DNA of 64,000 nucleotides from an archaeon. GTDB lineage: Archaea; Nanobdellota; Nanobdellia; Pacearchaeales; GW2011-AR1. The stretch spans positions 54,934-118,933 of the forward strand of contig JABHNB010000015.1 of the NCBI GenBank assembly GCA_018694115.1, in the 5' to 3' direction. The notes under the pieces were generated by a model that was not told the DNA's origin, did no database searches, and worked only from the letters and a program-made list of their open reading frames with translations. Numbering within the stretch: position 1 is the first letter of the stretch; every line of letters begins with the position of its first letter. The position numbers and the translations under genes are program-made. Below are positions 15,317 through 18,860 of the stretch, piece by piece.

Positions 15317-16084
15317 ATGGTTGTAAAAACTATTTCAGATGCATGCGATGCTTTCAAGGTTGCTCAGGAAATGGATTATCATGATGGGGATATTTTTATT
15401 GATAAACTTATTCGCACTGGTATTCCTTTTGAAATGAGTGAGGCTGAAGAAGCTGATACCTACGATCCTCGGTTTAGGCCTTTTTCCGTTAATGAAGCAA
15501 AGGACAGATATGCGACTGATGGGAAAAGTTGTGTAGATCCATTATTTAGGAAATGTTTTGAAGTTTATGATGCTCATAAGAGAGATTTTAAGGATAACGC
15601 TTTTGGAGAGATCTCTGTCCCGATTACTGATTTTACTAATGTTCTTTATTTGACAGAGCGGGCAATAATGGATTCTTGGGATGACGGGATTTTCTTACAA
15701 TCCGATGATAAGATTGGGCTCCCTGATTTTTTTGAAGATTTTTTAATAGCTAGATGTAAGAATTCTCCAGAGAAATTAGGGATTCTTGAACCAGATTGTT
15801 ATGTTGATCCATTGAGCCGGTTAGCGATGCATATTCCTAATTTAAGGAGACTTGGAACGCCTTCAAGGCATGGGGGAGGTATAGGATATTGGGTTTTGAC
15901 TCCAAGAATGGATCTTAAGTTTAATATTAGGGGAGATTCAGGTTTGTTCGGTGAGAGAAATCACGTTGAGGGAACATTGAAGTTAAAAGCGTTTCCTGCA
16001 TCTGAATATAAATTTTGGCAAGGGAAACTTGATGAGTTTATTACTGAAGTTTCTGAGGGAAAAAGAACTAGCTTAAGAAAATAA
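15317..16084 (+). CDS. Hypothetical protein
   Basis: 255-aa open ORF; TTTTTAAAGC upstream. No family recognised. Confidence 0.6.
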   Translation: MVVKTISDACDAFKVAQEMDYHDGDIFIDKLIRTGIPFEMSEAEEADTYDPRFRPFSVNEAKDRYATDGKSCVDPLFRKCFEVYDAHKRDFKDNAFGEISVPITDFTNVLYLTERAIMDSWDDGIFLQSDDKIGLPDFFEDFLIARCKNSPEKLGILEPDCYVDPLSRLAMHIPNLRRLGTPSRHGGGIGYWVLTPRMDLKFNIRGDSGLFGERNHVEGTLKLKAFPASEYKFWQGKLDEFITEVSEGKRTSLRK

Positions 16085-16090
16085 ATATCT

Positions 16091-16615
16091 CTAAGGTTGG
16101 ATTGAATCAGGTTTCTTTACAATTTTCTTTGCGACTTTTTCTGCAATTTCTTCTTTTTTTCTCCTGATGGTATAAACCTTTGGAGATTTTCCACTTGCCT
16201 TTTTCTTCTTAGTGGATGTTATGAAAACATTGAGTGCTACATCTATGGCGTAGGCTAATATAAGGTAAATTGCCATGTCTATAATTAATGCCCAGATATT
16301 AATTGGAATGGCTTCTGGATCTGCTAAGTCGAATACTAAGAACTTCATTGGAAGTCCAACAGCTAATTCGATATCGATATTTCCTGCGAAGAGCGATCCT
16401 AGGGGAAATTGTGCGATTCCAATGATAATAACTAAAATAAAAATTACTCCAAATGCATAGCTAAATTTTTTTGTTGGTGTTAGCTCTTTTGGAATTGAAC
16501 TGCCGACGATTTTCCAAAGAGATTCTTTTGGCCCTACATATTTGTAATCTATTTTATTTTTTTGGGGAGTAGTTGCTTGAGCGGGATTTGAGACTGGTAT
16601 CACTTCTTTTTCCAT
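16091..16615 (-). CDS. Hypothetical membrane protein
   Basis: Two hydrophobic segments and a Lys-rich C-terminus. Confidence 0.55.
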   Translation of the reverse strand: MEKEVIPVSNPAQATTPQKNKIDYKYVGPKESLWKIVGSSIPKELTPTKKFSYAFGVIFILVIIIGIAQFPLGSLFAGNIDIELAVGLPMKFLVFDLADPEAIPINIWALIIDMAIYLILAYAIDVALNVFITSTKKKKASGKSPKVYTIRRKKEEIAEKVAKKIVKKPDSIQP

Positions 16616-16700
16616 ATCATTCTTAGGGAGAGTTGTTTTATAAATTCTTCTTTAGAAAGCTTTTAATAGTCTCTTAATTGATTAAAAATAGGGTGAAAAC

Positions 16701-16714
16701 CCCAGAATTCTGGG
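16701..16714. promoter_or_regulatory. Perfect 14-bp palindrome CCCAGAATTCTGGG upstream of the sigma-like gene
   Basis: Read directly; ends 10 nt before the ATG at 16725. Confidence 0.45.
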
Positions 16715-16724
16715 AATAAATTCA

Positions 16725-17639
16725 ATGGGACGTCGAAGAAAAGTCAGTAACACGGAATTTGAACCTTATTTTACTTGGAAAGGAAAACGTCCATCTTGGA
16801 AGGAACAGAAGAAAATGTTTATTGAATTGGGCAAGAATAAAACTGTTACAAATCTTAAATATCATGATCGAGGGATTGTTGAGTGTGCTGGGCGAACTGC
16901 CGAGATTTATGGATTTCCAAAGAAAATTTCTTGTAAGGTTGGAACTTTGGTTAATAGGATAGATAAAATGGGGGCTCTTAGTGAATATCAGGAAATGAAA
17001 GGCGGCGGAAGAATAACTGTAAATGATGGAGCATCGATCTACAAAATGGGGGGAGAAAAGAAGAGTCAGAATATTTGGTGTTTTTCTGAGCGGGGCGTTA
17101 AGTTATTTGGGGATCTAATTGAAATGAATCAGCCGATGGTTGCTTCACAAGTTAGTTATTCTATTTTGAGATTCGGAGGGGATTTAGATGATTTGATGCA
17201 AATTGGAAATATGGCTATGATGCATGCGGCTCGAAAATTTAATCCAAAATTTGGGTATGTATTTAGTACTTATGCTGTTCAAGCTATGAGAACTTCCTTT
17301 GCGAGGAAAGGGAAAAAGAAAAAAGCTCTACTTGTTGATGATATTTCCATTGACATGGGATCTAGCGGGGAAAAGGGAAGTCTTTTTGATATTATTCCTG
17401 ATAGTTCTAGGAATCAAAATACGAGTCTTGATGATTATGATCTTTGGGATAGGTTGTCTTGGGAAATCAGTGATGAGCAAGAAAGCGCTCTTCTTATGTA
17501 TCTTGGACAGGGAAAAACATTAGAAGAGACTGGGGAACTTTTAGGAATCAGTAAGGAATGGGTCAGAAAGCTCAATAAAGAGGCAATAGAAATAATGAAA
17601 GAGAAGGCTCGTGATTTAGGGGAATTAGTTTCTAATTAA
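16725..17639 (+). CDS. Sigma-70 family-like protein (region 2 and region 4 similarity) with an uncharacterised N-terminal domain
   Basis: DLDDLMQIGNMAMMHAARKFNPKFGYVFSTYAVQAMRTSFAR resembles sigma region 2; ISDEQESALLMYLGQGKTLEETGELLGISKEWVRKLNKEAIEIMKEK resembles region 4 HTH. Confidence 0.8.
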   Translation: MGRRRKVSNTEFEPYFTWKGKRPSWKEQKKMFIELGKNKTVTNLKYHDRGIVECAGRTAEIYGFPKKISCKVGTLVNRIDKMGALSEYQEMKGGGRITVNDGASIYKMGGEKKSQNIWCFSERGVKLFGDLIEMNQPMVASQVSYSILRFGGDLDDLMQIGNMAMMHAARKFNPKFGYVFSTYAVQAMRTSFARKGKKKKALLVDDISIDMGSSGEKGSLFDIIPDSSRNQNTSLDDYDLWDRLSWEISDEQESALLMYLGQGKTLEETGELLGISKEWVRKLNKEAIEIMKEKARDLGELVSN

Positions 17640-17642
17640 TCT

Positions 17643-18860
17643 TTAGTTAATTGAACCGAATCCGATTAATCTCCAGTGTCCATTAAGATTTCTTGCGATT
17701 CCGATTGATTCACCCTTAAGCGGGACGATTGGAATTTTTAATGATAGATCCGCCTTTTCTTTGTCTGATTTTATTACTTGTCCAACAGTGATTGAAGTAT
17801 TTACACTTAACATAAGCATTTCGTTTGGTTTAAGGTTATCAACTTTTTCATGAGCTTCTGTTCCAAGAACTTTATCGAAAAGCTCAAATTTCATTGTTAT
17901 CTTATCTGTTATTTCTGGGAGTTCTCCTTCTTTTGATGCAATGCTTCCGGAAAGTGCATCTGACTTTGTTAGACTTGGATCAAGTTCTGTCTCTATTGCT
18001 AATGATCCTCCAGGTCCTGCTTCAGTTATCTGGTATTCTCCTTTTTGCATTGAAACTATCTTTGATCTGACTGTTTTGTAATGGTATTGATTTTGTTTTT
18101 TATAGGAATATCCGGGTTTTATTTCAATTATATCTCCGACCTTTAATGTTCCTTGTTTAAGCGCTCCCCCAAGAACTCCTCCATGTAATTTTGAGATATC
18201 TGTTCCGGGTTTATTAATATCAAAACTTCTTGCAACTAGGAAAATTGGTTTTTCATCTTTTTCTGGTTTTGAAACTTCGATATTACAAAGAGTTTCAAGA
18301 ACCTTATCCAAGTTAACTCCCTGTTGTGCAGAGGTTGGAATAATTGGAGAATCTTCAGCGATTGTTCCCTTAACGAATTCTTTTATTGTTTTGTAGCTTT
18401 CAAGGGCTTGTTCTTTTGATACTAGATCAATTTTATTCTGAACAATGATCACGTTCTTAATTTTCTTTGCTGTTAGTGCTACTAGGTGTTCTTGTGTTTG
18501 TGGTTTTATTCCCTCATTTGCTGCGATAACTAGGATTGCTGCATCCATAATTGCGGATCCCGAAAGCATTGTTGCCATAAGCATTTCATGTCCTGGCGCA
18601 TCCACGAATGTAATATACCTTTTTGGAGTTCCTTCTGAATCTTTATCAACTGACAGTTTTTTTGTTTTTGGATCTTCACGAACGATTGCATCGGCATAAC
18701 CTAACTTGATGGTGATTCCTCGCTTTAGTTCTTCAGAATGTGTGTCTGCCCATCTTCCGGATAGTTTGTAGAGCAGAGTTGTCTTACCATGATCGATATG
18801 TCCGACTATCCCTACGTTGATTGTGTCTATCTTTGAGATATCTACTTTTTCTTTTGCCAT
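17643..18860 (-). CDS. eif2g: Translation initiation factor aIF2 subunit gamma
   Basis: NVGIVGHIDHGKTTLLYKLSG, VDAPGHEMLMATMLSGSAIMDAAILVIAANE, VQNKIDLV. Confidence 0.96.
   Translation of the reverse strand: MAKEKVDISKIDTINVGIVGHIDHGKTTLLYKLSGRWADTHSEELKRGITIKLGYADAIVREDPKTKKLSVDKDSEGTPKRYITFVDAPGHEMLMATMLSGSAIMDAAILVIAANEGIKPQTQEHLVALTAKKIKNVIIVQNKIDLVSKEQALESYKTIKEFVKGTIAEDSPIIPTSAQQGVNLDKVLETLCNIEVSKPEKDEKPIFLVARSFDINKPGTDISKLHGGVLGGALKQGTLKVGDIIEIKPGYSYKKQNQYHYKTVRSKIVSMQKGEYQITEAGPGGSLAIETELDPSLTKSDALSGSIASKEGELPEITDKITMKFELFDKVLGTEAHEKVDNLKPNEMLMLSVNTSITVGQVIKSDKEKADLSLKIPIVPLKGESIGIARNLNGHWRLIGFGSIN

Follow-up and report, generated by a model that had tools for sequence, protein, structure and literature searches.

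A sigma70-family protein with an unfamiliar N-terminal domain, encoded by a single-gene insertion between two core genes of a Pacearchaeota-like archaeon

Textbooks tell the two prokaryotic domains apart by sigma factors on one side and TBP and TFB on the other. What, then, is a gene with the signature of a bacterial sigma70 factor doing in an archaeon? A sequence-only reading of the 64,000-nucleotide stretch of DNA analysed here (the window) raised this question by pointing to sigma regions 2 and 4 in one open reading frame (ORF), and proposed that the product may be a repurposed DNA-binding regulator or may act on a bacterial polymerase or a mobile element. The position and strand given for that ORF are correct. 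The features of the locus are:

16091..16615, minus strand: membrane-protein gene, normally directly after the aIF2-gamma gene (same-genus junction comparison)
16636..16644, unstranded: archaeal TATA-like box TTTTATAAA, read from the sequence; on the other strand it precedes the membrane-protein gene
16701..16714, unstranded: perfect 14-bp palindrome CCCAGAATTCTGGG, 10 bp ahead of the sigma ATG; a candidate operator or chance
16725..17639, plus strand: sigma70-family ORF, 304 aa, ATG to TAA (profile, PDB and fold matches)
16725..17111, plus strand: N-terminal part, aa 1-129, without detectable relatives (Pfam, PDB, pLDDT)
17115..17300, plus strand: sigma region 2, aa 131-192 (Pfam PF04542; four modelled helices, pLDDT ~70-80; residue comparison)
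17337..17408, plus strand: linker DDISIDMGSSGEKGSLFDIIPDSS, like region 3.2 (finger) in a by-eye alignment to E. coli RpoD and DPANN sigmas
17469..17600, plus strand: sigma region 4 helix-turn-helix, aa 249-292 (Pfam PF04545; pLDDT 83-90)
17643..18860, minus strand: aIF2-gamma gene, the second gene flanking the insertion (Pfam GTP_EFTU and eIF2_C; 70-81% identical within the genus)

That the window protein is a genuine sigma70-family homologue is established, the match being far above chance level. Pfam recovered both Sigma70_r2 (PF04542; E = 5.8e-9, 36.1 bits against a cut-off of 24) and Sigma70_r4 (PF04545; E = 5.2e-8, 32.7 bits against a cut-off of 24.1), the NCBIfam sigma70-ECF model TIGR02937 matched aa 128-294 above its cut-off (E = 2.1e-22), and the RNA polymerase sigma factor profile PHROG 351 matched from region 2 to region 4 (E = 1.2e-21). 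The top sequence matches in the PDB were RpoS and SigA. An AlphaFold model of the protein is confident for aa 122-204 and 236-298 (pLDDT ~70-90), and each of the 50 Foldseek matches listed for it was a bacterial sigma factor, the best with E = 5.6e-8. Regions 2 and 4 in order, each above its curated cut-off, together with the fold match place the protein in the sigma70 superfamily, as first read from the letters. Pfam found neither region 1.2 (PF00140) nor region 3 (PF04539), the pair that marks Groups 1-3 of sigma70 factors, and regions 3.0/3.1 are absent. The architecture is thus an unfamiliar N-terminal domain followed by sigma 2, a sigma-3.2-like linker and sigma 4, the last with SKEWVRKLN (aa 276-284) as its recognition helix. 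The N-terminal domain, described as unfamiliar at the outset, remained so: aa 1-129 matched nothing in Pfam and nothing in the PDB at better than E = 1.1, and they were not modelled with confidence, pLDDT being below 50, with no usable model, for aa 34-120.

The ECF-type sigma factors (TIGR02937) share this layout of region 2, linker and region 4 without region 3. ECF sigmas are bacterial proteins of ~200 aa that are usually paired with an anti-sigma factor; unlike them, the window protein has an extra N-terminus of ~125 aa, occurs with an archaeal RNA polymerase (RNAP) and has no anti-sigma factor identified at its locus. Phage sigmas (PHROG 351) resemble it over regions 2 to 4 and differ in their N-terminal parts and, in contrast to them, the window gene is chromosomal, with phage genes absent around it. 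A reading as a defence gene was rejected, because the PADLOC match to MzaA of the MZA anti-phage system was weak (2.3e-7), confined to 48 residues of region 2 and short of what defines MZA; MzaA, unlike the window protein, is ~700 aa long, and no other Mza protein was seen beside the window gene. In archaea the job of bacterial sigma is done by TFB, which has been proposed as a remote sigma homologue (PMC8131849). Unlike TFB, the window protein has neither TFIIB repeats nor a zinc ribbon, and a normal TFB is encoded separately in the genome.

The host is a Pacearchaeota-like archaeon with TFB and an archaeal RNAP only. Its genome (G000), a fragmented draft of 899 kb with an estimated completeness of 82.7%, contains one Sigma70_r2 domain and one RpoB-like protein, which falls below the cut-off for bacterial rpoB. 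Bacterial rpoB exceeded that cut-off in 0/20 tested genomes, the host included, and in 10/10 control bacteria, and TFB was found in all 20 of the tested genomes. The archaeal-type transcription machinery assumed in the sequence-only reading is therefore present, and the bacterial polymerase that it offered as a possible partner was not found in the host genome.

To examine how the gene came to lie where it does, we compared the junction in 13 same-genus genomes. In 10 of them the small membrane-protein gene directly follows the aIF2-gamma gene on the same strand with nothing between; in the other three, the membrane gene overlaps the aIF2-gamma end (1), the contig ends too soon (1) or the region is rearranged (1). 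In the window, the sigma gene lies between these two genes, 3 bp from the aIF2-gamma stop codon, antisense to both and upstream of the TATA-like box belonging to the membrane gene; such boxes also precede that gene in same-genus genomes. Because the flanking genes are directly adjacent, with no sigma gene, in 10 of the 13 genomes, the sigma ORF is a single-gene antisense insertion between two linked core genes. Its G+C content (0.375, against a host mean of 0.372) and its codon usage are typical of the host, so the gene did not arrive very recently from a compositionally different genome. The antisense membrane gene next to it has no Pfam match, and we do not claim it as an anti-sigma factor because it is also present in relatives that lack a window-type sigma. 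The gyrA side of the locus is variable among relatives: a 255-aa ORF without Pfam or PADLOC match lies between gyrA and the membrane gene at 15317-16084, PADLOC matched neither of the two gyrA-side neighbours of the sigma gene, and one same-genus genome has a Type II restriction-modification pair at its gyrA/aIF2-gamma locus (L113:1119-3858). A Pacearchaeota-like aIF2-gamma also turned up in a record titled Candidatus Dojkabacteria bacterium (L234), probably a mis-binned contig.

Whether an archaeal polymerase could receive such a protein depends on its clamp. In E. coli, residues R275, E295 and A302 of beta' matter for sigma binding. None of the three is found in the 25 aligned genomes, whose A' subunits have I, A or S in place of R275, L (F once) in place of E295 and H in place of A302, and these clamp residues are alike in the 18 genomes with a sigma gene and the 7 without. 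No co-adapted clamp was seen in the sigma-bearing genomes in this comparison. As the residues are equal with and without sigma, nothing points to an RNAP adapted to it, and the archaeal polymerase has not been remodelled toward bacterial-type sigma docking. The clamp coiled coil is a common binding site, for sigma in bacteria and for TFE and Spt4/5 in archaea (PMC3382729), so a different sigma contact there would be possible despite the missing residues. In the family of the host (L140, L145, L147), the A' and A'' subunits appear as one reading frame of ~1140-1185 aa.

The sigma side of the interface was assessed by aligning the window protein and other DPANN sigmas to E. coli sigma70 (RpoD), whose numbering we use; the RpoD ruler in the alignments is one residue off the fetched RpoD in region 4 (Y/H before TLEE), and the numbering is correct. 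The window protein retains D403, Q406, N409, M413, Y430 and R436 and carries the substitutions L402D, E407I, W433Q, W434A, Q437T and Q589K. L402, D403, Q406, E407, N409 and M413 are the positions facing the beta' clamp helices, so that four of this contact set are kept and two, L402 and E407, are altered. W433 and W434 form the Trp dyad of promoter melting and, with Y430, capture the -10 element; only the tyrosine of these three aromatics is present. The Trp pair is missing in some bacterial sigmas too, and its loss therefore does not rule out sigma homology. Among full-length sigmas of the Pacearchaeota family, G408 and Y430 are present in 23/23, Q589 in 22/23, D403 and R588 in 20/23, N409 in 19/23 and W434 in 18/23.

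No orthologue of the window sigma was found in 186 same-family genomes, the best match (E = 2.9e-9) covering the sigma domains only; some other DPANN sigmas lie at conserved loci (below). Two same-family proteins (L170 and L003) have a similar layout, with an unfamiliar N-terminus, regions 2 and 4 and no region 3. Viral contigs held no close relative, nor did phages, in which matches reached 23-51% identity over partial coverage; plasmid matches were weak and none close, and a genome scan with the window sigma as query returned no named relatives. In a tree of sigmas its nearest nodes are weak (0.45 and 0.33). Another DPANN sigma has one viral relative (L261, 33%). Since the window gene sits singly between core genes and has no close viral or phage relative, the mobile-element role first suggested for it is not supported.

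Sigma70 proteins were already known in DPANN archaea: Castelle et al. 2021 (PMC8204110) described them as fam00359, particularly in Woesearchaeota, alongside archaeal TBP/TFB/TFE, with mis-binning excluded and no anti-sigma factor found. The window protein is likewise a sigma70-family member in an archaeon with the archaeal factors. That paper reported presence alone; the window protein has no region 3, no Trp dyad and an N-terminal domain of its own. Sigma70_r2 exceeded its cut-off in 127 of 378 sampled genomes of the host class, about a third, and in 100 of 282 genomes of a phylum sample that overlaps the class set; the class-level counts are of sequence domains in draft genomes, and the case against contamination covers the window gene and the genes on long contigs (many of these genes are on contigs of 0.2-1.5 Mb). 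A two-domain sigma in an archaeon thus stands as described, and is less exceptional than the sequence-only reading implied. Several DPANN sigmas have the full 1.2-2-3-4 architecture (PF00140 and PF04539 both match the sigma of L047), often with the Trp dyad and R588/Q589 retained, and in the alignment those of Woesearchaeota-like type come close to the canonical form for bacterial RNAP. Beside these, the window protein is an outlier, with no sigma-3, no Trp dyad, an altered -35 helix and an orphan N-terminal domain. A genome of the same class (L062) encodes a 1741-aa protein with a canonical sigma70 at its end, and in two family genomes a sigma gene lies near a TFB gene (L044:4927-7016 and L158:104-3537).

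In places, DPANN sigmas are inherited vertically at conserved loci, where they change quickly and purifying selection nevertheless acts on them. Three genomes of one genus have the order MTAP, small gene, Elp3, small gene, sigma, and a fourth genome has Elp3 with a sigma nearby; in all of these (L047, L057, L163, L162) sigma is downstream of Elp3, and L163 has two tandem sigma genes. A sigma gene followed by a calcineurin-type phosphoesterase gene is found in four genomes from three Pacearchaeota-family genera (L043, L051, L059, L169), with TFS and a Toprim-like protein upstream in two of the four. The Elp3-linked sigmas are 46-51% identical, compared with 85-88% for the neighbouring Elp3, amino-acid evolution being 4-6x faster in the sigmas. 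Among sigma relatives, the window gene excluded, pN is below pS, with w roughly 0.2-0.6 against 0.09-0.11 for Elp3, estimates that are rough because synonymous sites are near saturation.

The region upstream of the window gene offers a candidate for self-regulation. A 14-bp palindrome would turn up by chance somewhere in 95 positions with a probability of ~0.9%. CCCAGAATTCTGGG has one exact copy in the host genome, the one preceding the sigma gene; those sites with 2 mismatches that were inspected (L257, L258) are within coding sequence, and the genome-wide site search found no regulon via this palindrome. The leader RNA does not fold into an unusual hairpin (z = -0.5), and -35/-10 elements are not enriched upstream of DPANN sigma genes (p = 0.27).

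Of the functions first proposed, a repurposed DNA-binding regulator appears the most likely kind. Because region 3 and the melting residues are gone and the RNAP is without bacterial docking residues, the window protein is best read as a co-opted regulator and not as a working sigma. Our tentative proposal, to which we give a little less than an even chance, is that this resident, single-gene member of the sigma70 family has been co-opted to regulate transcription, binding to DNA and perhaps also to the RNAP clamp. The region 4 helix-turn-helix and region 2 would bind DNA, region 2 may still touch the clamp coiled coil at the site used by TFE and Spt4/5, and the protein would thereby tune transcription started by TBP/TFB. 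The retained beta'-facing residues (D403, Q406, N409, M413), with Y430 and R436, count for this proposal, as do the homology and fold, the archaeal-only RNAP with TFB, the clamp site that sigma shares with TFE and Spt5, the host-like codon usage and the conserved loci and pN < pS of other DPANN sigmas; against it are the clamp without sigma-type residues, the changes E407I, W433Q, W434A, Q437T and Q589K, and the fact that neither target promoters nor a regulon were found. The same clamp, and the loss of E407, both Trp and Q437, would suit a regulator that works independently of RNAP, an ordinary repressor or activator, possibly of its own gene through the palindrome, in which regions 2 and 4 serve solely as helix-turn-helix elements. 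We consider this possible but the less probable course, as a pure DNA binder would have no need of the four retained clamp-facing residues, and the palindrome has no second exact copy and only coding matches among the inspected 2-mismatch sites.

It is unlikely that the gene is a mere passenger, derived from a phage or bacterium and hopping singly, decaying or selfish and with no host role. Its patchiness (it was not found in same-genus genomes), its orphan sequence, the good fit of the PHROG 351 profile and the fast amino-acid change of DPANN sigmas would all agree with that, whereas an intact 304-aa frame with host-like codon usage and a preserved sigma signature, and related sigmas under purifying selection at conserved loci, argue against it. 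With the promoter-opening Trp dyad lost, the window protein is probably no initiation factor in its own right. A true alternative factor, docking on archaeal RNAP as sigma does and using its own promoters without TBP/TFB, has in its favour the many other DPANN sigmas with complete 1.2-2-3-4 architecture, the dyad and R588/Q589; for the window protein we regard it as very unlikely, given the loss of region 3 and the dyad, a clamp without co-adaptation and no enrichment of -35/-10 elements. Less probable again is delivery of the protein into a partner or host cell whose bacterial RNAP it would act on: some Pacearchaeota and Woesearchaeota have been suggested as bacterial episymbionts (Castelle et al. 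2021, PMC8204110) and the Woesearchaeota-like sigmas would suit such a polymerase, but the window N-terminus (MGRRRKVSN...) is unlike a secretion signal and no delivery system is linked to the gene. The idea that the contig is bacterial, a contaminant or mis-binned, for which the fragmented, incomplete draft might speak, deserves almost no weight; as originally judged, it is contradicted by archaeal flanks, aIF2-gamma and the membrane gene, whose order is conserved in the genus and which enclose the gene within a 119-kb contig, and it is already refuted unless that contig is chimeric at both junctions.

The co-opted regulator that we favour may belong to something broader, although we think this improbable as yet: DPANN archaea might control transcription by archaeal RNAP at a second level, of sigma type, where full-length sigmas would dock on the clamp by a novel mode and steer or adjust initiation at particular promoters, with the window protein as a derived branch. 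Sigmas kept at conserved loci under selection, in cells with an archaeal-only polymerase, leave two readings: either archaeal RNAP can accept a factor of the sigma type, or the fold of sigma now serves as a DNA-binding regulator. Both matter for the swapping of initiation factors between polymerases and for the proposed kinship of sigma and TFB.
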